Positions 2,620-22,793 of a stretch of 22,793 bases of DNA are shown here, in pieces. The stretch's first letter is position 1, and each line of letters starts with the position of its first letter. Source of the DNA: a virus; the IMG/VR virus record IMGVR_UViG_3300027861_000209, positions 1 through 22,793 of that record; one strand, written 5' to 3'. The translations under genes and the position numbers were made by a program. The notes under the pieces are model-generated. The model saw only the letters and a list, made by a program, of their open reading frames with translations. It was not told the origin of the DNA and ran no database searches.

Positions 2620-4242
2620 ATGAGTTTTATCAGAGGCATGATCGGTTCCCACCGCGCCGAGATCACCGCGCACGCTAACCGCACGCGCCGCATAAGAGCC
2701 TCTAAGGACATGAACCTCCTCGCAGAGGAGTTGGCTCCTATTATGGATCCCGAGGGCCTCAGGGCCTCTCGTGTGCATAACTACCAGACGACTGTGCGAG
2801 ACGTTCGTCCTGCTAACCTTCTGCAAGAAGATCGGGACTCTAACTACGGAGTCATCGACCTTGATAGGTTAGATCGAAACCTGTTGGCATTCGCAGAGGC
2901 TGTAGAAGCGGGTGAAGATCTAGAGCAGTTGGGAGAGGTCTTCGATCCTATCTCCTTAGCAGTCATGGCCGCCTCTGGTGCTGTGCTGACCGGTATTGGA
3001 CTATTTAAAGCCGGCAGTAGGCTCATTCACTATTCAAAGACCACCGGCTACATTCGCGACGAGACTCCAAAGTCTGCTCGTAGACGACATGCCGCGACCA
3101 TGAACAAATTGAACGCAGTGCGCAACCTGATTAGTAGGGACACTGTTCCTGCTGCTCTGGACACTGCTTACGATAAGTTATCCGACGACCTTGAGGACAT
3201 AGAGGATGCTCTAGCGCTAGCAAAGCGCAAAGCTGAGGAAAAGACGGATAAGCTTTACGCAGTACAGCGACACATGTCTACCGCTAAGAAGCATATGGCT
3301 ATGTCCAAGGACGAGCTTAAGGTTGAACTTGAAAAAGTCACCGGCATGCCTCCTACTTCTGGTGCACAAAAGGTCCACCTTATAAGAGAGCTAGAGTTGT
3401 CTGGTGTCTTTAAGACAAGACCTAAAATGCTGAAGATGTTCAAATTACAATTCCGCGTCCCTGCTCTTATTCGTGTCAAGAAGGCGCTAAAGGCTAGGTT
3501 GTCCAAGGCTAAGAGGGAGCGAGTGAAGGTAGGGGAGTCCGTTATTGAAGTAGTTTCGAACGCTCCTACTGAGAAACTGCGTAACGCCCAGATTAAAGCC
3601 GAGCGCGAGCGAATCTCAACAGAGATCATGAACCGCATTGAGCCGCTCTTCAGAAGTCTGCACAAGTTCCAGAAGCGGTGGATGCCTAGTAACGCTAAGT
3701 GGGGGTTGAAGACCGTAAAGCTGAAGAACAAGGACTTCGATTCGGACCAACCGGAGCATTACGCCACCAATCCTAAATTTCGTATGGTGCTGACAAAAGA
3801 GAAGGGTCCTATTGTGGCCTACGAGGCATTCCTTGAGATTGCGGATGGCCTCCAGGCGGTTCTAGAGGATACTCTCGACAAGGTTGATGCTGTTGGCGCA
3901 GAGGCGATTGGTTCTACTTTGCAGTCACTGGCCCTCTACCGTGAGCAAATGGAAGACTCTTGGCGACAGAACCTGTGGAACTGGTATGGGCTTGGACGTA
4001 TTCCTAACTTCGTTCGCAAGAAGCTTCGTAGTCACTTCGGCAAGGACATTCCTCTCAACCGTAGGCAACGAAAAGAATTGGACGACATGCAGGCAAAAGC
4101 TGGAGCCGCTTGGGCGAAGAAGGCTGGTCAGGAAACACCTGAAGCTGATGCCGAGGCCCAAGCAGCAGAAGCTGAGGCAGAGAGAGAGACTCTCGATCTA
4201 GATCCTGAGATTCGTCGCATGTTCAATGATCTAAATGCCTGA
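2620..4242 (+). CDS. Large candidate internal/core virion protein with SAP-like motif
   Basis: A 540-residue protein of unrecognised family. Visible parts are a basic N-terminus with LLAE at 33-36 (a possible protease site) and a hydrophobic Ala/Gly stretch at about 108-130 (ISLAVMAASGAVLTGIGLF) that could contact membrane or bury in a core. A long charged helical region follows at about 165-228, probably coiled coil. Residues 228-264 (MSKDELKVELEKV through HLIREL) resemble a SAP/HeH DNA-binding helix-extension-helix motif. The C-terminal half is helical and ends in an Ala/Glu-rich tail. It has a weak GAGA ribosome binding site, and an alternative start at Met31 (2710) is possible. The position just after the capsid gene and the DNA-binding-like motif suggest a head-internal protein. 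This is inference. Confidence 0.75.
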   Translation: MSFIRGMIGSHRAEITAHANRTRRIRASKDMNLLAEELAPIMDPEGLRASRVHNYQTTVRDVRPANLLQEDRDSNYGVIDLDRLDRNLLAFAEAVEAGEDLEQLGEVFDPISLAVMAASGAVLTGIGLFKAGSRLIHYSKTTGYIRDETPKSARRRHAATMNKLNAVRNLISRDTVPAALDTAYDKLSDDLEDIEDALALAKRKAEEKTDKLYAVQRHMSTAKKHMAMSKDELKVELEKVTGMPPTSGAQKVHLIRELELSGVFKTRPKMLKMFKLQFRVPALIRVKKALKARLSKAKRERVKVGESVIEVVSNAPTEKLRNAQIKAERERISTEIMNRIEPLFRSLHKFQKRWMPSNAKWGLKTVKLKNKDFDSDQPEHYATNPKFRMVLTKEKGPIVAYEAFLEIADGLQAVLEDTLDKVDAVGAEAIGSTLQSLALYREQMEDSWRQNLWNWYGLGRIPNFVRKKLRSHFGKDIPLNRRQRKELDDMQAKAGAAWAKKAGQETPEADAEAQAAEAEAERETLDLDPEIRRMFNDLNA

Positions 4243-4306: not shown

Positions 4307-5047
4307 ATGTCGAGCACTACGATTGACAAAGCAGGATTAGGAGACCTTCAGGCATTGCTTGAAGGACGCCGACCATATGTGGCTCCTCCTGAGGAAGAGC
4401 CGGAAGTAGAGCTTACGTCCGAGGACCTCATGGCTGCTCATGCAGCTATGACGAAAATGGCGGAGCTTAATATGCAGCAAGCCCTGGCCGCGCTCAAGTT
4501 CCTCAGTCAGTACAACGAAGACCTTGTGCGCCCTATGGGTCAGTTGCGGAAGGCTATTAACAGCCTGGCTCCTGTTATCGCTGACGCACCAGAGGCAGTG
4601 CAATCAATTGCACCAGAGGTAGAAACCCCTCCCGAGACTGTGCCCAGCATTAACGGTGCGGACGTTCCGAAGAGATCGCTCAAGGAGCGTATTCTTGAGG
4701 CAGAGCACAAGCGCAAGACTCGTCCAGGCATTCTTAAGCACACTGAAGACGCCTCCGAAGAGAAGCAAGTGTCAGATGCTTACGACAGTGTTGTTCACGC
4801 GCACGGAGGCAGCAACAACTCCGTTCATAACGAAGTCCTTCCTCCCACGAATGACCTGCATGACGCCCCTGACCATGTGCCTCTGGACATCTACGATCCA
4901 GCTTCTGGTGAGGTAGCTCCCTCTGTGTTGTCCGCAGATTCCGGAATTGCGCCTAGCCTTCCTGAGACTCCTTATCCGGAGTCGCTTGATGACCTAGGCA
5001 TTTCTTCTGTTACCGTGGACGAAGAAGCTCACAACCCCCTGGCGTAA
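4307..5047 (+). CDS. Acidic candidate internal head protein with LLE/G N-terminal signature
   Basis: A 246-residue protein of unknown family. The N-terminus MSSTTIDKAGLGDLQALLEG ends in L17-L18-E19/G20, an excellent match to the T4 prohead-protease type site [LI]-x-E/[AGS]. An acidic Pro/Glu linker (about 25-40) comes next, then a helical segment (about 40-95), then a long low-complexity, mostly acidic and probably disordered C-terminal half with one basic patch (KRSLKERILEAEHKRKTR). The start is supported by GAAGGAG upstream. The short leader contains AGTAGACC twice (4266-4273 and 4299-4306). A near-palindrome copy lies inside the gene at 4599. The inferred role is a packaged or scaffold-like head component. 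Confidence 0.7.
   Translation: MSSTTIDKAGLGDLQALLEGRRPYVAPPEEEPEVELTSEDLMAAHAAMTKMAELNMQQALAALKFLSQYNEDLVRPMGQLRKAINSLAPVIADAPEAVQSIAPEVETPPETVPSINGADVPKRSLKERILEAEHKRKTRPGILKHTEDASEEKQVSDAYDSVVHAHGGSNNSVHNEVLPPTNDLHDAPDHVPLDIYDPASGEVAPSVLSADSGIAPSLPETPYPESLDDLGISSVTVDEEAHNPLA
4599..4612. repeat. Palindrome family, near copy 2 (TGCAATCAATTGCA)
   Basis: Differs from TGCAATCGATTGCA only at the eighth base. It lies within the coding region of the 246-residue protein (reading Q-S-I-A) and is bracketed by an imperfect direct repeat, CACCAGAGG, on each side (about 4587 and 4611). Confidence 0.45.
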
Positions 5048-6695: not shown

Positions 6696-7490
6696 ATGAG
6701 GGAACACACGCTCACTATTACCGAATTACTCGGCGAGTTAGAAGTAGCTGCTGACAAGCAACTCACCGAAAGCGCAATTGTCGGTGCTATCGGTCTTGCG
6801 CTCGCCGGAAACGCACTCATAAACACTATCGGGTTTGCCATGAAGAAGTCCGATGCGGCTTATGAGGCTGGCCTAGCAGCGGCTGTTCTCAAGGAGGCGC
6901 AACCAAAGGCCTCCTTGCTGCAACGACTCTTCAGATTCCCAGCAAGCTCTATGCGAAATGGATTCAAAGAAGGAACGCGACTGCGCAAGATCCTGACCAA
7001 ATACGATCCAGATGTGCTCAAGCGCTTGCAGAAAGAATTCGGTAACGAGCGACGATTCCGCAAGGCTTCGAAGGAAGATCCGAAAGCGATGCTCGACGCA
7101 CGCGGCAAGATTAAGAAGGAATATCTTCCGCCTACGTCAAACAAGCGCAGTGATAAAGATGAGCAACGCACGAAGATAGCTTATGCACGCGCTGCGGCTG
7201 CTAAAGGAAAGTCGTCGGACGAGGAATACCAACTCCTGTGGACGCTGTCCTATCGCGGAGGCACACGACTCGATAACATCGCCAAGCGCATGAATGCAGC
7301 CAACGCCAAAGCTACAGATGACTTCGCGAAGCTCTACGGTGGCAAGTCTAAGAAGCCTGCTAGGCCAGCTAAAGGGAAGCGCCTCAAGAAGAAGGCTCCT
7401 ACTGACGACGCTGAATCCGCTTGCACCGCAGCCGGTGGCAAAATGGTCTACGGACGATGCGTGAAAAACCATAAGGTCATTAAGGTTTAG
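6696..7490 (+). CDS. Basic candidate internal head protein with hydrophobic segment and C-terminal Cys module
   Basis: A 264-residue protein. The N-terminus MREHTLTITELLGELEVA leads to L23-T24-E25/S26, a good [LI]-x-E/S signature. Immediately after it comes a hydrophobic Gly/Ala segment (26-49, SAIVGAIGLALAGNALINTI). The body is very basic with Lys-rich tracts (GKSKKPARPAKGKRLKKKA). The last 24 residues (241-264), from SACT to HKVIKV, contain two Cys around GGKMVYGRC. They are nearly identical to residues 376-399 of the 611-residue protein at 9828, where a methyltransferase follows. AGAAGG lies 14 nt before the ATG, rather far for a ribosome binding site. The function is unknown; the shared module suggests a common docking or metal/DNA-binding role. 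Confidence 0.72.
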   Translation: MREHTLTITELLGELEVAADKQLTESAIVGAIGLALAGNALINTIGFAMKKSDAAYEAGLAAAVLKEAQPKASLLQRLFRFPASSMRNGFKEGTRLRKILTKYDPDVLKRLQKEFGNERRFRKASKEDPKAMLDARGKIKKEYLPPTSNKRSDKDEQRTKIAYARAAAAKGKSSDEEYQLLWTLSYRGGTRLDNIAKRMNAANAKATDDFAKLYGGKSKKPARPAKGKRLKKKAPTDDAESACTAAGGKMVYGRCVKNHKVIKV

Positions 7491-9827: not shown

Positions 9828-11663
9828 ATGGACTTGAACCGTATTGACGAGGTGCTAGCCAACATGGTGCGCCTAGCCGAAGAAGGAGCAGGCGCTCCTG
9901 TTGATACCGCCGCTCCTCCAAAGGAGACTAAAGGCGACGATGCTGAGTCCACAGGCGCAACTAAGTCCGGACAGACGAGTGTCTCCAAGAGTGACGCTAT
10001 TAAGTCTCATTGGCACCGCGCCTACACTGACGACAAGGGCGATGGCAAGACAGACGACAAAGAAAGTCACACGCACAAGATTGTGAGTGGCGTCGTTAAG
10101 CCAGCGGGTGGGCATACTCATGAGATGCCAAAGTCCAACTCTCGCAAGAGTCGCGGCCTAAAGGCCGGTAGCTTCAAGGGCGGTTCTGAGCCTAAGAAGC
10201 GGAAGAACAAAAAGAAGCCCGCAGGAATCGCTTCTGTTACTCCGGACGTCACTCCAGCTGCTCCTCCTGGTGAGGAAGAGGAGACTGTTGAGTCACTCAT
10301 GGCTCGTATGCTTGGTGTCATACGTGAAGAGTCAGAGGGCTGGAATTCTGAGTGGGCCAAGACTGATCGCGAGGTCAACGCTTCGGACTTCATTGACGAC
10401 TCCCGTAATATTCTTGCCACCTATGCGCTAGAAGCTAGTAAGTCAAAGAAGCGCGACAAAGTCCTCTTCAAAGAGGTTCGTAAGCAACTTAGTGATCTAG
10501 ATAAGCTGGCCTCCGACCTACAGAAAGGCAACGTTGACAAGTCTGATTTCATGGGTCGCATGGAAGGCGTGCACGCAGCTATCGAAAAGAACAGGGTCGC
10601 GCTTGGCAAGTCAATGAAGAAGAGGCAGTTTAAAGACCGAGCTACAATCGTTTGGATGGGAGCGCTGACAGCCGCGTCTGCTGCTGCTTCTGTAGCCACA
10701 GGTGGTGCGTTCAACCCAGTCGTCGCTGTCTTTGGTGCTGCTAACACACTGGTTAACATGGCTACGTCTACCAACGCTAAGTCTGCTATGAGCAGCTTTG
10801 GAAAGTCATTCTCGAAATTTAAGTCGTCAGTCACCAAGCCTTCTGACGAGCAAGAGAAGAATGACGATAACGAAGAGAAGAAGTCTAAGAAGAGCGACAA
10901 GAAGCCTAAGAAGGCAGAGAAGTCAAAAGGCAGCAGCAAAGAAGCTGCAGTCTCTGCTTGCACCAAAGCAGGCGGTAAGATGGTCTACGGTCGCTGCGTA
11001 AAGAACCACAAGGTCATTAAGGTAGAAGGCACCAACTGGCTTGAAGAAGAGTACGGGCTCGCAGACGACAGTAATAACCACACAAGATGGTCAACTAAGT
11101 CTGAGTCTTTTGCCAAGTACGCGATCCTAGAGAACCTCCTAGAGAACGCCGACCACGTCATAGACGTTGGTTGCGGTAAAGGGCTGCTTTACAAATGGCT
11201 CCTGAGTGAGCAGTCTAAGAACGTTGCATACTATGGGGTGGACCGTAGTGAAGACTCTCTGTCGGAGTTCGCTCACAGCTACCCAAACATCACCGCGAAT
11301 CTTAGGAGGGGCAACGTTCTCTCTATAAACGAAGAGGACCTACCTCGTGATCACTTTGACGTCTCTGTGGCTTTTGGTGTCACGTCGAACTTTGGAGAAG
11401 GCTCGGGCCAGTACTCAAAGTTGCGCCAACTCGTAGAATTCATGACGTCACACAGTGACGTGTCAGTTATCGAGTTCTGGGATCGCTTCAAATTTAAGAA
11501 GCCAGACCACGCACTGAAGGGTGATCGTCAGCCGTCCGTATGGACCCCGCAGAGGGTCATGAAGGTCTTCTCTGAGAGCGATTGCCATGTTCAACTTGTT
11601 CGACCACTAAGTGGTATGGACTTCGCTGTAGTCGCTACACGAAGTGATATGAGGAGAGTCTGA
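9828..11663 (+). CDS. Candidate packaged protein fused to a class I SAM methyltransferase
   Basis: A 611-residue mosaic. Residues 1-20 (MDLNRIDEVLANMVRLAEEG) form the targeting-like helix with L16-A17-E18. Three H-x-H motifs follow (61/63, 81/83, 96/98) in a low-complexity region, then a helical region. A long Ala/Gly hydrophobic stretch at about 273-314 precedes a Lys/Glu/Asp-rich tract. Residues 376-399 repeat the Cys module that ends the protein at 6696. From residue 400 a new domain begins: motif I VIDVGCGKG (444-452), acidic loop YYGVDRS with D472, and a DHFDVSVAFGV strand, typical of class I SAM-dependent methyltransferases. The DPPY/NPPY motif of DNA amino-methyltransferases is absent, so the substrate may be protein, RNA or a small molecule. 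The stop overlaps the next ATG (TGATG). This is probably a gene fusion onto a cargo protein. Confidence 0.78.
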   Translation: MDLNRIDEVLANMVRLAEEGAGAPVDTAAPPKETKGDDAESTGATKSGQTSVSKSDAIKSHWHRAYTDDKGDGKTDDKESHTHKIVSGVVKPAGGHTHEMPKSNSRKSRGLKAGSFKGGSEPKKRKNKKKPAGIASVTPDVTPAAPPGEEEETVESLMARMLGVIREESEGWNSEWAKTDREVNASDFIDDSRNILATYALEASKSKKRDKVLFKEVRKQLSDLDKLASDLQKGNVDKSDFMGRMEGVHAAIEKNRVALGKSMKKRQFKDRATIVWMGALTAASAAASVATGGAFNPVVAVFGAANTLVNMATSTNAKSAMSSFGKSFSKFKSSVTKPSDEQEKNDDNEEKKSKKSDKKPKKAEKSKGSSKEAAVSACTKAGGKMVYGRCVKNHKVIKVEGTNWLEEEYGLADDSNNHTRWSTKSESFAKYAILENLLENADHVIDVGCGKGLLYKWLLSEQSKNVAYYGVDRSEDSLSEFAHSYPNITANLRRGNVLSINEEDLPRDHFDVSVAFGVTSNFGEGSGQYSKLRQLVEFMTSHSDVSVIEFWDRFKFKKPDHALKGDRQPSVWTPQRVMKVFSESDCHVQLVRPLSGMDFAVVATRSDMRRV

Positions 11664-17352: not shown

Positions 17353-19164
17353 ATGGTCGAAAAAACCAAGCCCGATGTTTACATCGAAGAGGTAGATCCG
17401 TCTCCCGCGACTGAAGGTGTGTCACCTTCACAAATGGGAATTGTCGGTCGTACCCAACGTGGTCCGACGAATGTGCCTACGAAGGTGCGCTCCCTTGACC
17501 AGTTCGTCAGGACATTCGGACCAAAGATTCCTGAGTCTTTGGTTGGAGTGACTACCGAACAGTTCTTCCAGAACGATGGCCGCGTCGCTGTCGTCGTGCG
17601 CGTCGTTCCTGACGGCTCTTTGCCTGCTACCGTCGATATTGACGCTCCTGCCAAGTGGATTTTCACTGCTAAGGACGTTGGCACCTGGGGCAACACAGTA
17701 GTTGTTGAGATTCGCGGTAACGTGAACGCTCTGGACGAGGCTACTCCTGAGTGGGACAAGTACGACATTCTGATCAAAGAGCCCGATGCTTTTGGTGCGC
17801 TACTGGCCACGGAAGTATTCGAGGGTGTGCAGTTCCTGGTCAGCACCGACACCGACTATGCACTGACCGTGCTCAACGACCCACTCAGTGGATCTTCACT
17901 GATCACGCTGTCTGAAGGTCTTGGTGGAGACCCTGATTTCTTCGCCGCCAACCTGGTCACCGGAGAGTCTTTGGGCTTGGCCACCGGCCTTAGCGCTCAA
18001 TTCAGCGGGACCTTCGCTTCAGTGCCACAGGTTATCCGCAACACTGTGGTGATCGCTACCGGCGCTCAGTTTGTTACGGACGACGGTTTCGGTAACCTGA
18101 TTGGTGCAGTTGACCCAAGCGGCAACAACATTGTCAGTTACGAGACTGGCGCCTACGACGTAACGTTTGCTGCTGTTCCAGCCGCGTCCGCTGCTGTCAC
18201 TGTTAACTACACACAATTGCCCTCCACCAATGACTACTCCATGGCTGGCGGCACCGATGGTGTGAACGTTATCACTCGTAACGAAGTGACTCACCCAGAC
18301 TTGATCGCTCAACGCGCTGGTATGTATTCCTTCGACAAGCTTCGGGATATCGTCAACGTCGTGATTCCAGATTTTGCAGGCAACGCTACTGTTGCTCAGG
18401 ATCAGGTTGACTACGCTGACACTCGCCGTGACCGCTTTGTCCTTCTGCAGGCTCCACTGGGAGCTACTGTGGACGAGGCTCTGGTGTGGAAGCAGAACAG
18501 CCTTAACCGGAACAGCCGTCGCTACTCCGCTTACTACCCCGGCATTCGCTGGCGCAACTCCTCCACCGGTCCTGTGGACCTGGTCCCAGCACTTGGTGTT
18601 GTCGCCGGTATCTTCGCTCGCACCGACTCCAACAAGAACGTCAGTAAGGCCCCTGCGGGCAAGATCGACGGAGCAATTGTTGGTGCCGAGGGACCAGAGT
18701 TCACGTTGGACGAGACTGATGAGAGGCGCCTCTTTGAGCGTCGCCTCAACCCTATCGTCAACACCGCTGCTCAAGGTTTCGCGATCTGGGGTGCTCGCAC
18801 GGGTCAGACCGGTCAGACCGGTTTGAAGGATAACTTCAAGCACATTGGTCCAGTGCGCACGTTCATGTTCCTTCAAGAGTTTGCCTACATCCGTCTCCAA
18901 GAGTTCGTCTTTGAGAACAACGGACGTGGACTGCAGACTCGTATTCGCGGCGCCCTCCTTGGTGACTTCAGTTCTTTCTTCGACTCTGGCCTGTTCGCAG
19001 GACTCACGAAGAAGGACGCGTTCTTCATCATCTGTGACGGCTCTAACAACACTGAAGAAGACATTGATAACGGAATCATCAATGTGGATATCGGTGTCGC
19101 CCTCAACCTTCCTGCTGAATTCGTCGTCGTGCGCTTCCAGCAAAAGACCGCAGTGCGGATCTAA
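17353..19164 (+). CDS. Contractile tail sheath protein, T4 gp18-like
   Basis: A 603-residue protein forming the contractile outer layer of the tail. The N-terminus has the classic sheath opening (KPDVYIEEVDPSPATEGVSPSQMGIVGRTQRGPTNVPTKV, then a SLDQFVRTFG segment), seen in myophage sheaths. The variable middle is Gly/Thr/Val-rich and beta-like. The C-terminal domain includes RFVLLQAP, the SAYYPGIRWRNSSTGPVDLVPALGVVAGIFARTD region, RRLNPIVNTAAQGFAIWGARTG, and a terminal IGVALNLPAEFVVVRFQQ strand. These are the conserved core of the family that links subunits. T4 gp18 is 659 residues. The AGGAGG ribosome binding site and C-rich codons indicate high expression. It stands before the tail tube gene, as in T4. 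Confidence 0.95.
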   Translation: MVEKTKPDVYIEEVDPSPATEGVSPSQMGIVGRTQRGPTNVPTKVRSLDQFVRTFGPKIPESLVGVTTEQFFQNDGRVAVVVRVVPDGSLPATVDIDAPAKWIFTAKDVGTWGNTVVVEIRGNVNALDEATPEWDKYDILIKEPDAFGALLATEVFEGVQFLVSTDTDYALTVLNDPLSGSSLITLSEGLGGDPDFFAANLVTGESLGLATGLSAQFSGTFASVPQVIRNTVVIATGAQFVTDDGFGNLIGAVDPSGNNIVSYETGAYDVTFAAVPAASAAVTVNYTQLPSTNDYSMAGGTDGVNVITRNEVTHPDLIAQRAGMYSFDKLRDIVNVVIPDFAGNATVAQDQVDYADTRRDRFVLLQAPLGATVDEALVWKQNSLNRNSRRYSAYYPGIRWRNSSTGPVDLVPALGVVAGIFARTDSNKNVSKAPAGKIDGAIVGAEGPEFTLDETDERRLFERRLNPIVNTAAQGFAIWGARTGQTGQTGLKDNFKHIGPVRTFMFLQEFAYIRLQEFVFENNGRGLQTRIRGALLGDFSSFFDSGLFAGLTKKDAFFIICDGSNNTEEDIDNGIINVDIGVALNLPAEFVVVRFQQKTAVRI

Positions 19165-19588: not shown

Positions 19589-20101
19589 ATGGCACGCGCA
19601 TTGAGCACGGACTACTTTCAGGGCTTCGCGTTCCACGTGCGCGAGCCTAATAACTTTCTGTTTCCCTCTGCTGGGTTTCAGGCGGTCACCGTTCCAGAGA
19701 CGACTCTCGGTATCGCCGAGTATCGCGAAGGAATCTACCGATACACCCGCAAGCAGCCGGGTATCCCCACGCAGAACGATCTGACGCTGTCACAGGGTGT
19801 GACTAAGCGCGGCAGTGACTTCTTCGACTGGATCCTGAATGCAATCGAGGGCCGCGCCTATCGCACGGACATTGAGATCTATCACTTTCATCGTGAAGAT
19901 CCCCGTGGTGTTGATGGTGTTCCTTCGAAGATCTACCGCTGCCTTGAAGCCTTCCCGCTTCGTGTAAAGGCCGCAGCTGACCTGGAAGGAACTTCAGAGG
20001 ACATCAGTCTCGCTGAGATCGATATCGCGTTTGAGGAGCTTGAGATTGATAGTCCAGGGGCAGCAGAGACTGACGCTACGCCTTCTCCCGGCGCTATCTA
20101 A
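19589..20101 (+). CDS. Tail tube protein, T4 gp19-like (first copy)
   Basis: A 170-residue protein (T4 gp19 is 163) that stacks in rings to form the inner tube through which DNA passes. Typical features in order are a short start (MARALSTDYFQGFAFHV), VTVPETTLGIAEYREGIYRYTRKQPG, DLTLSQGVTKRGSDFFDWI (the conserved L-x-x-G-x-x-x-x-x-x-D-F-x-x-W segment), IYRCLEAFPLRVKAAADLEGTSEDISLAEIDIAFEELEI at the C-terminal side. A strong AAGGAG ribosome binding site follows an inverted repeat. It stands after the sheath as in T4. A paralogue begins 500 bp downstream. Confidence 0.92.
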   Translation: MARALSTDYFQGFAFHVREPNNFLFPSAGFQAVTVPETTLGIAEYREGIYRYTRKQPGIPTQNDLTLSQGVTKRGSDFFDWILNAIEGRAYRTDIEIYHFHREDPRGVDGVPSKIYRCLEAFPLRVKAAADLEGTSEDISLAEIDIAFEELEIDSPGAAETDATPSPGAI

Positions 20102-20600: not shown

Positions 20601-21110
20601 ATGGCTCGCGCTCAAAACACCGACTTCCTACAGAGCTTCTCCTTCAGCCTTCGCGACGTTACCGGCACAGGTGACTTCGGACTTGAAGGAGATCCTTTTG
20701 ATTTCAACGGCGGTGAGAGTAACGGAGTTGGCTTCACCTCTGTGAGTGGTCTCGTTGTTCAGGCTGAGACCTTTCAGATATCCGAAGGTACGTTCCCGTT
20801 TGCTAGAACATTCGTAAGACGCGCCAGCGTTAGCTCTGTGACTCTTCGTCGCGGCATGGCCGGCAGAGACAGTGATTTCTACAACTGGTTTCACTCATCA
20901 CTCTATGGATATCCAGACACCCGTAAGAACCTACTTCTCACAATGAACCGACGTGATGGAGAGCCTGCAAAGGCTTGGCTGCTGCATGACTGCATACCAG
21001 TGCGTGTTACCTGTGCTCCGGATCTAGACGCTACCAACCAAGAGATAGCTATAGCGGAGTTGGAGATCCAGCCAACCTACTTTGAGGAACTCGCTATCTC
21101 TGAGTCATAG
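20601..21110 (+). CDS. Second gp19-family tail tube protein
   Basis: A 169-residue paralogue of the first tube protein: MARAQNTDFLQSFSFSLRDV parallels MARALSTDYFQGFAFHVREP. VQAETFQISEGTFPFARTFVRR, VTLRRGMAGRDSDFYNWFHSS and CIPVRVTCAPDLDATNQEIAIAELEI align in order with the corresponding blocks of the first copy. It differs by a Gly/Asp/Asn-rich insertion (about 22-45). Divergence is large, so the duplication is old. The two could form different parts of the tube, or this one could be an initiator/terminal ring such as the gp54/gp48-like proteins, which share the fold. Ribosome binding site GGGG about 10 nt upstream. Confidence 0.85.
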   Translation: MARAQNTDFLQSFSFSLRDVTGTGDFGLEGDPFDFNGGESNGVGFTSVSGLVVQAETFQISEGTFPFARTFVRRASVSSVTLRRGMAGRDSDFYNWFHSSLYGYPDTRKNLLLTMNRRDGEPAKAWLLHDCIPVRVTCAPDLDATNQEIAIAELEIQPTYFEELAISES

Positions 21111-21262: not shown

Positions 21263-21484
21263 GTGAACGACGAAATACGCTGGAACCTGCGGTTGAAGAG
21301 AGTGCTTCACGATAAGCTCGGGCGCTTCTCTAAAGAGCTAGGTGTGGCGAAATCAGACATCGCCCGCTTGGCTCTTATCCAATTCATGCATGGCGTAGGA
21401 GAGAAGCTCTCACTACGTATGGTTCGAGATCAACTTAGATCCATTGAGACACAGCTGGAAGCAGCTGAAGGAGTAGACAAATGA
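21263..21484 (+). CDS. Ribbon-helix-helix (Arc/CopG-type) DNA-binding protein
   Basis: A 73-residue protein whose first 45 residues fit the ribbon-helix-helix fold: a short beta strand (IRWNLRLKRVL), helix A (HDKLGRFSKELG), a turn (VAKSDI) and helix B (ARLALIQFMH). A second helix-rich tail (LRMVRDQLRSIETQLEAAEG) may be a dimer or tetramer extension. The family binds short inverted or direct DNA repeats as dimers. GTG start with GAGG 7 nt upstream. Its stop overlaps the next ATG by 4 bp (ATGA), so it is translated with the gp26-like gene. A regulator inside a tail module is unusual. It could bind the nearby inverted repeat or the TGCA-type palindromes. Confidence 0.62.
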   Translation: MNDEIRWNLRLKRVLHDKLGRFSKELGVAKSDIARLALIQFMHGVGEKLSLRMVRDQLRSIETQLEAAEGVDK

Positions 21485-22284
21485 GCGAAGCTCAAACCAT
21501 TGGGACGCTAGTAGAAGACGTTGAGGAAGACCTCAACCAGTTGACGTTCGGCAAGATCATGGATGGTGTGCTTACGCTGCCTGGTGGTGTTATCGATTCA
21601 GAGGGCAACCTGCATAAGGTTGTGAAGCTGCGAGAGATGACTGGTGAGGAAGAAGACATCCTTATCAGTAACTCGGTGAAGGGTCACGAGAAGATCGATA
21701 AGGTCCTCTCAAACTGTGTTACGCAGCTTGGTGACATCTCAGACAGGAAGTCAATCGAGCTTCAGGTTCGCCGTATGACTGTAGGGGACCGTGTTGTGCT
21801 CCTCATGGCTGTGCGCTCTCTGTCTCTAGGATCAGAGTACAGCTTTAGCTCGCAGTGCGATAACTGCGGGGCCAAGAACGACCATGAGGTTGATCTTCTT
21901 GAGCTAGACGTTAAGGAGGCTCCAGACCCTAAGCTGCGTGAGCAGACCCTCACCCTTCCTTCTGGCCGTAAGGCTACGCTGGCCGTTATGACTGGCGAAG
22001 GCGAGGCTCGTATCGCTAAGGCAACGCGAGGCAAGAAGCGCGGAGACGTGCTGAGCTTGAACATTATGGCTCGCCTTGTGGAGCTAGACGGCGCTCCAGC
22101 TGGAGTCAAGACAGTCAAGAAGCTGACTACGCGTGACCGCAAGGCTATTCGCCAGTGGTTCAGGGCTAACGAGGGTGGTGTTGACACTTCCCTGGAACTG
22201 TCTTGCGACAGCTGTGACTCTGAGTACGAGTCCGTGCTTGACGCTGGCCAGCCGGATTTTTTCTTCCCCAAGGACTCCGAGTAG
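21481..22284 (+). CDS. T4 gp26-like zinc-binding baseplate hub / tail assembly protein (zero-frame product)
   Basis: A 267-residue protein with the T4_baseplate (gp26-like) layout: an N-terminal region with TLPGGVIDSEGNLHKVVKLREMTGEEEDIL, a helical middle, and two Cys pairs. C126-x2-C129 lies in FSSQCDNCGAKNDHEVDL and C242-x2-C245 in LELSCDSCDSEYESVLD. These pairs probably bind one zinc. The end QPDFFFPKDSE is typical of this family (FF near the C-terminus). In many myophages this gene and the following frame act as tail assembly chaperones. The last codons contain the slippery heptamer at 22257-22263, giving access to the -1 frame. The start overlaps the RHH gene stop (ATGA). Confidence 0.75.
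   Translation: MSEAQTIGTLVEDVEEDLNQLTFGKIMDGVLTLPGGVIDSEGNLHKVVKLREMTGEEEDILISNSVKGHEKIDKVLSNCVTQLGDISDRKSIELQVRRMTVGDRVVLLMAVRSLSLGSEYSFSSQCDNCGAKNDHEVDLLELDVKEAPDPKLREQTLTLPSGRKATLAVMTGEGEARIAKATRGKKRGDVLSLNIMARLVELDGAPAGVKTVKKLTTRDRKAIRQWFRANEGGVDTSLELSCDSCDSEYESVLDAGQPDFFFPKDSE
22257..22263 (+). promoter_or_regulatory. -1 frameshift slippery heptamer T TTT TTC
   Basis: In the zero frame the codons are GAT TTT TTC, so the heptamer T-TTT-TTC has the canonical X-XXY-YYZ form for -1 slippage. Seven codons later the zero frame ends at TAG (22282-22284), while the -1 frame is open to 22646. Just downstream CCCCAAGGA (22266-22274) can pair with TCCTAGGGG (22286-22294), an 8-bp stem with one A-A mismatch and an 11-nt loop. 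GGGGCC (22291-22296) could alternatively pair with GGCCCC (22327-22332), a possible pseudoknot. The 2-nt spacer is shorter than usual. Confidence 0.65.
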
Positions 22285-22646
22285 ATCCTAGGGGCCAGTT
22301 TGCTGACGATGTTCCATTGCTCCTTAGGCCCCTTGGGGCCGAGGAGATGTTGCTGGGAGACCTGACGTTTTTTGGAAGACTGCTGAGATGGCAACCATCT
22401 GAAATCATGGCACTTCCTTATTCCCGAAGGGTGAAGCTCCGCGATATGAACCTTAAGATAGAGGAGGACACTAAGGAGCGTATGAAGGGAGGAGACGGCA
22501 AGTGGCGTAATTCGAGTAAACCACAGTCACCAAGAAGTGCTGTGTCTACCGAGCCTGATATGCGCAGTTATTCAATTGCGCCTCCCACTTCGTCTCCCCC
22601 TCCTTCTCGTAGGAGAAATCCTCGTCGTCCAAGAGGTCAGAAGTAA
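22263..22646 (+). CDS. -1 frameshift extension of the gp26-like protein (tail assembly chaperone type)
   Basis: This frame has no convincing start of its own at its 5' end. TTG 22317 is the nearest and lacks a ribosome binding site. It is open continuously from the slippery site. Slippage at TTC (22261-22263) would join 261 residues of the upstream protein to 127 new ones, for a 388-residue product. The extension reads LPQGLRVDPRGQFADDVPLL..., then GDLTFFGRLLRWQPSEIMALPYSRRVKLRDM. The latter is an aromatic/helical segment with the Pro-[YW]-S-R-R signature seen in second-frame tail assembly proteins. It ends with a Pro/Arg/Ser-rich tail. The arrangement is like lambda G/GT, although the upstream partner is gp26-like. 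Independent translation from an internal start is the alternative. Confidence 0.62.
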   Translation, partial: LPQGLRVDPRGQFADDVPLLLRPLGAEEMLLGDLTFFGRLLRWQPSEIMALPYSRRVKLRDMNLKIEEDTKERMKGGDGKWRNSSKPQSPRSAVSTEPDMRSYSIAPPTSSPPPSRRRNPRRPRGQK

Positions 22647-22675: not shown

Positions 22676-22793
22676 ATGAGTCGCAACGGTAACGCCGTAA
22701 CACAGATAGAAGAGGACGAGATGGTCAGGCTCTATCAGTCTGGCTTTTCGTCCAATGACATCGGTAAGGAGCTAGGACGTTGCGGGCGTGGGG
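22676..22793 (+). CDS. N-terminus of a helix-turn-helix protein, possibly another homing endonuclease (3' end outside window)
   Basis: The 39 visible residues begin MSRNGNAVTQIEEDEMVRLY, then QSGFSSNDIGKELGRCGRG, a helix-turn-helix opening. It resembles the HTH of the homing endonuclease at 1172 (VRLYEEGRSMQSIADQMG): both have VRLY, a short turn, then an I-A/G-x-x-[ML/EL]-G helix. GGGTAGG lies upstream as a possible ribosome binding site. Its place after the tail assembly genes is where a tape measure gene would be expected, so an inserted mobile gene is plausible. The visible part is too short to assign further. Confidence 0.55.
   Translation, partial: MSRNGNAVTQIEEDEMVRLYQSGFSSNDIGKELGRCGRG

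Follow-up and report, generated by a model that had tools for sequence, protein, structure and literature searches.

Near the right end of this viral contig, the gene for a T4 gp26-like protein comes to a stop while an overlapping frame stays open beyond it. This raises the question of whether the two are joined by a programmed −1 frameshift, as a sequence-only reading had proposed. The window, that is, the whole stretch of DNA that was analysed, is the complete IMG/VR record (22,793 bases). Its source is a contractile-tailed phage, with a major head protein encoded at the left end and with genes for a head-tail adaptor, a sheath and two gp19-like tube proteins. The features on which the argument turns are the following:

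17353–19164, + strand: tail sheath protein (Pfam/PHROG profile matches)
20601–21110, + strand: T4 gp19-like tail tube protein, upstream of the gp26-like gene (profile match)
21481–22284, + strand: gp26-like core of 267 aa, the putative G-like product (PF12322/phrog_150, predicted chaperone fold)
22257–22263, + strand: slippery heptamer T_TTT_TTC in zero-frame phase (sequence)
22264–22646, + strand: −1 frame extension, the putative T-like part, 127 aa up to the stop, with ~386 aa predicted for the fusion
22266–22294, + strand: possible hairpin CCCC-A-AGGA / TCCT-A-GGGG, arms 22266–22269 and 22271–22274 with 22286–22289 and 22291–22294
22282–22284, + strand: zero-frame TAG stop, which ends the short product (sequence)
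22338–22466 (approximate), + strand: conserved block within the extension, AEEMLLGDLTFFGRLLRWQPSEIMALPYSRRVKLRDMNLKIEE, which can be aligned with relatives

The order expected in a tail module is tube, chaperone and tape measure, and in the window a tube gene does lie upstream of the gp26-like gene. The contig stops short of the tape measure gene, and a homing-endonuclease-like ORF appears to come after the extension. This ORF (22677–22793, beginning MSRNGNAVTQIEEDEMVRLYQSGFSSNDIGKELGR... and open at the contig end) stands where the tape measure gene would be expected, and at its start it is similar to the helix-turn-helix region of a probable homing endonuclease encoded directly after the major head protein gene (1172–2227; LAGLIDADG_3 1.2e-12, HNH-type PHROGs). 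Two other peculiarities of the window were recorded. The two T4 gp19-like tail tube proteins within the one tail module (19589–20101 and 20601–21110) differ from each other, and the motif ...SACT.AGGKMVYGRCVKNHKVIKV is common to two otherwise unlike proteins (6696–7490 and 9828–11663), preceding a methyltransferase domain in the latter.

The core protein matched PF12322 (T4 gp26-like) with 46.9 bits (curated cut-off, 24.5; E 3.5e-12) and phrog_150, labelled "baseplate hub", with 1.1e-16. It has four invariant cysteines and is probably zinc-binding. Together these results bear out the description of the first partner as gp26-like. An NCBIfam search of the core proteins gave no match. In the zero frame, the 3' end of the gene reads GAT TTT TTC TTC CCC AAG GAC TCC GAG TAG. 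It follows from this reading of the CDS that T_TTT_TTC is in the correct phase, and its first base lies 25 nt from the stop, in agreement with the claim of an in-phase heptamer close before it. The window therefore combines an in-phase slippery site at the 3' end of the gene with an open second frame. Under a codon null the heptamer has a probability of ~0.11 in the window by itself, so on its own it is unremarkable.

The sequence-only reading had named conservation of the heptamer in relatives as a check, and the relatives, taken from viral contigs, bacterial genomes and phage records, agree with it. TTTTTT(N) was found in phase near the gene end in 172 of the 175 −1-type loci. After removal of redundancy at ≥75% protein identity, T TTT TT(N) was in phase in 41 of 44 −1-type representatives. 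A synonymous-codon null based on each protein and its codon usage predicts 11.4 of these 41, with a joint probability of ~1e-39.8 when relatedness is ignored; since this product covers carriers only and the sequences share descent, it is a guide and not a p-value. The strongest single cases were GC-rich clade B prophages, with codon-null probabilities of 0.0003 to 0.0007 each. When clade B has leucine at the site the codon is TTA or TTG, though these make up just 4–30% of the leucine codons there. One locus, L010, has eight T at the site. Separately, we asked whether clade B represents extracellular injection systems instead of phages; this was ruled out for L066, whose contig carries portal and Mu F-like head genes.

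Relatives with both frames and without the heptamer had been put forward as the case that would speak against the frameshift. Two of the 44 representatives are of this kind, and a third non-carrier is an in-frame fusion. L079 keeps the extension with no recognised slip site. L128 (Cygsa01, 3290–3482) has the extension behind a TAATG stop-start overlap, which suggests a reinitiation solution. In L198 (a cyanophage-like contig, 2150–2330) both frames are fused in one ORF (SFWLGMAHVDL...) and the short form is apparently missing.

The −1 frame of the window is open from 22257 to the stop at 22644–22646, as had been claimed, and contains WQPSEIMALPYSRR. Between the heptamer and the conserved block lie ~24 codons of spacer that are absent in most relatives. 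The proposal that this frame encodes a plausible conserved segment also held, in that the extension of the relatives evolves as a protein: differences per codon position were 0.32/0.25/0.58 in clade B and 0.35/0.22/0.54 in clade E, i.e., concentrated at third positions, at a mean protein identity of 57–61%. In clade A, to which the window belongs, the corresponding values of 0.59/0.47/0.68 come close to saturation, though position 2 still varies least. The window's own extension has no significant Pfam or PHROG match. In the relatives, the conserved part is closely followed by a long ORF, which carries the tape measure annotation in SP-15 and LIS04; with the tube gene of the window, this places the gene between tube and tape measure, where a tail assembly chaperone is expected.

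The picture was different for the stimulatory elements. The mismatched stem proposed downstream of the heptamer exists as described, but it begins only 2 nt past the heptamer, its stability compared with shuffles is not unusual (z −0.72) and it has no conserved counterpart. Downstream regions of clade A averaged z −0.09 without conserved structure, clade B showed no conserved downstream structure, and nothing conserved or unusually stable was found 5–9 nt downstream of the slip site. The hairpin is probably no functional stimulator. A downstream stem or pseudoknot in that role was rejected, being neither conserved nor above shuffles, and the suggested pseudoknot partner thus found no support. 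Upstream, SD-like sequences (GGAGG/GAAGG/GAGGG/GAGG) were present in 76 of 76 distinct clade E sequences and in 33 of 35 from clade B; those of clade E overlap a conserved E-G-L codon run and may be kept by protein constraint. An SD-like element of the dnaX kind, 9–14 nt upstream of the slip site, is absent in the window and was found in 3 of 17 clade A sequences.

Other branches of the family have the extension in a different frame. The Streptomyces phages LuckySocke, GiJojo, BRock and their relatives encode it in the +1 frame (or, equivalently, −2), and each of the 17 clade C (+1) records tested has TTT C in phase at exactly 12 nt ahead of the stop, in most cases as TTT CGN. The SP-15 type (Bacillus SP-15, Streptococcus GXN1 and relatives) resembles the BRock type, with the extension in the +1/−2 frame and mostly a TTT C site in phase; LIS04 differs, with TTT TTT A. 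Comparison of the extensions across frames with hhalign gave 96% for clades A and B, 85% for B and C (+1), and 79% for E and D (+1), with scores of 30–51 against ≤19 for column-shuffled controls. In three BRock-type records (L002, L003 and L004, ~4700–5030), a hypothetical protein of 51–65 aa has been annotated for the extension by itself; this ORF, lying +1 to the gp26-like gene, has the look of the second member of a frameshifted pair.

Three other explanations have to be weighed against these data. The extension could be a separate small protein, translated from a start codon of its own or by ribosomes that reinitiate past the core's stop. Possible starts in the window are a TTG at 22317 without SD and an ATG at 22347, just before the conserved block, with only GGGG upstream, so the earlier statement that the frame has no good start is mostly correct, the ATG being the point in favour of separate initiation. 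An ATG stands 5 nt past the stop in many of the cyanophages, while others have none; Cygsa01 (L128) has its TAATG overlap, and the cyanophage extension is annotated as a "gp51" ORF of its own. Against this, 22 of the 41 representatives have no in-frame start within the first 15 extension codons, a start with an SD-like sequence occurs in only 3, and many members lack any start codon ahead of the conserved block. Separate initiation also gives the conservation of the heptamer and of its phase no role, and T4 gp51 and L198 occur as fusions. We regard it as improbable.

The site is a T run, eight T long in L010, and RNA polymerase could slip on it, giving mixed mRNAs and a fusion by transcriptional slippage. 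The seventh base is usually not T, which leaves a run of six, short for this process. The exact tandem-codon phase is kept, while the +1 clades have TTT C instead and the SD-like elements of clades B and E lie at the distance of ribosomal stimulators, all of which makes transcriptional slippage very improbable. That there is no recoding at all, i.e., that the heptamer and the open −1 frame are due to chance or that one ORF was split by a sequencing frameshift, would sit well with the codon-null value of the window alone, but the same frame overlap and conserved extensions recur in independent isolates, metagenomes and complete genomes, and we consider this extremely improbable. Congruently with the conserved heptamer, its phase and the extension, the gene in the window very probably uses a programmed −1 frameshift that carries translation of the gp26-like protein on into the downstream frame, as far as can be judged from comparative sequence data.

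To what kind of protein the fusion belongs is suggested by its predicted fold. The model of the window core had a pLDDT of 87, and that of the natural in-frame fusion L198 one of 78.6, with the extension poorly predicted. Foldseek against the PDB gave no significant match for either model, and the signal appeared only on structural re-alignment over ~997 aligned PDB chains per model. The best two for the window core were 3klu (Z 5.8) and 2ob9 (Z 5.2), followed by a row at 3.0, and the best four for the cyanophage fusion were 2ob9 (8.0), 3fgx (7.8), 3klu (7.3) and 5ir0 (5.2), followed by 3.2; a Z below 8 may, as the tool warns, mean merely a common arrangement. The top-ranked structures for both models are all tail assembly chaperones: HK97 gp13 (2OB9), YqbN (3KLU), Rbstp2171 (3FGX) and PLE1 TAC (5IR0) (PMC9603447; PMC12987554). 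The solved chains have ~100 aa, under half the length of the gp26-family core, and searches of solved-structure sequences with the core, gp26 and gp51 found no convincing relative. The gap to the unrelated rows and the agreement of two models from different clades are persuasive evidence, not proof, of a chaperone fold. Based on these models, the gp26 family would seem to consist of tail assembly chaperones, with frameshifting as the rule. The sequence-only reading had set its gp26-like first partner apart from the tail assembly chaperones; with the predicted structures matching solved chaperones best, that contrast dissolves. That the window's gene both undergoes a programmed −1 frameshift and serves as a tail assembly chaperone can be held with good confidence.

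The T4-like phages extend this result. T_TTT_TTC lies just before the gp26 stop in cyanophage S-CAM22 and in 79 of 80 IMG/VR relatives, and within the −1 frame lies a short ORF that bears the T4 gp51 name, "baseplate hub assembly catalyst". In T4 itself gp26 and gp51 both belong to PF12322, the family of the window core (E 8.8e-64 and 3.9e-52). An end-to-end alignment showed that gp51 runs ~50 residues beyond the end of gp26, and this C-terminal tail is homologous to the cyanophage (clade E) −1 extension (hhalign, 96.8%); the clade A extension compared directly with the gp51 tail gave 3%, and the link goes via intermediates. In the tree, gp26 and gp51 group together (support 99/95) with the cyanophage genes as neighbours, the pattern that duplication of an ancestral frameshifted gene in the T4 lineage would leave. 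A review treats T4 as an exception to G/GT frameshifting (PMC5009743), and gp26 and gp51 have been described as hub assembly chaperones, gp51 being required yet absent from the final particle (PMC3004832).

Given the cyanophage shift, the make-up of gp51 as core plus extension and the gp26/gp51 clade, we infer that the "missing" G/GT pair of T4 is probably gp26/gp51. The T4 "baseplate hub" proteins are thus likely a tail assembly chaperone pair that arose by duplication of an ancestral frameshifted gene, in which gp26 would have kept the core and gp51 the core and the extension in frame. Taken jointly with this duplication, there is a good chance that a single family has moved between −1, +1 (or −2) and two-gene ways of making one and the same pair of products. 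We found no earlier report of a gp26/gp51 frameshift in the openly accessible literature, subscription literature being outside the search. The record of Citrobacter phage Moon (L120, 3250–4888) annotates gp27-gp28 as a "GT-like fusion protein"; the present data favour gp26/gp51.

From these computational results we infer slippage itself, its efficiency and the binding roles of the products. Most ribosomes would translate the 267-aa core and terminate at 22282 to give the G-like product. A minority would slip by −1 on U UUU UUC at 22257–22263, where the two adjacent Phe tRNAs would pair anew with UUU UUU, and continue to 22646 to give the GT-like fusion of core and extension. If the parts divide the work as in lambda gpG/gpGT, coating of the tape measure protein would fall to the core and recruitment of tube subunits to the extension; the ratio of the products would be set by the slip, and neither would be needed in the virion. 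Across the family, the same architecture would be reached by −1 slippage at U UUU UU(C/A/G) in several clades including the T4-like cyanophages, by +1 (or −2) slippage in Streptomyces BRock-type and SP-15-type phages, and in coliphage T4 by duplicated genes, one for the core alone (gp26) and one for core and extension together (gp51).

The kind of event is already known. The lambda slip site is G GGA AAG, unlike the U UUU UU(C/A/G) of the gp26 family. With lambda gpG/gpGT the family shares a pair of overlapping frames placed between tube and tape-measure genes and, as predicted here, a minority slip that adds an extension near the chaperone C-terminus. It differs from lambda in its first partner, which is of 208–290 aa with four cysteines where that of lambda is small, and in having been filed as baseplate hub. 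The direction of the shift varies among lambda gpG/gpGT and its counterparts in other phages (−1, −2 and +1; PMC5009743). T4 differs from the window in that the short and long forms are two separate genes with no frameshift. A two-gene tail chaperonin, gp143/gp144, has been proposed to replace the G/GT frameshift in phage 0305phi8-36 (PMC2147016); its two genes share a domain, as we propose for T4 gp26/gp51, although the phage belongs to a different lineage. What is new here is the assignment of the gp26/gp51 family as usually frameshifted chaperones, with T4 as a two-gene derivative.

If this reading of the T4 pair is true, T4 is no exception to the G/GT rule. The chaperone assignment would correct the annotation in T4-like cyanophages, in Streptomyces phages of the BRock type, in SP-15-type phages and in Desulfobacterota prophages, and the gp26 family would form a natural series of routes to one fusion, by frameshifts in different directions or by gene duplication.
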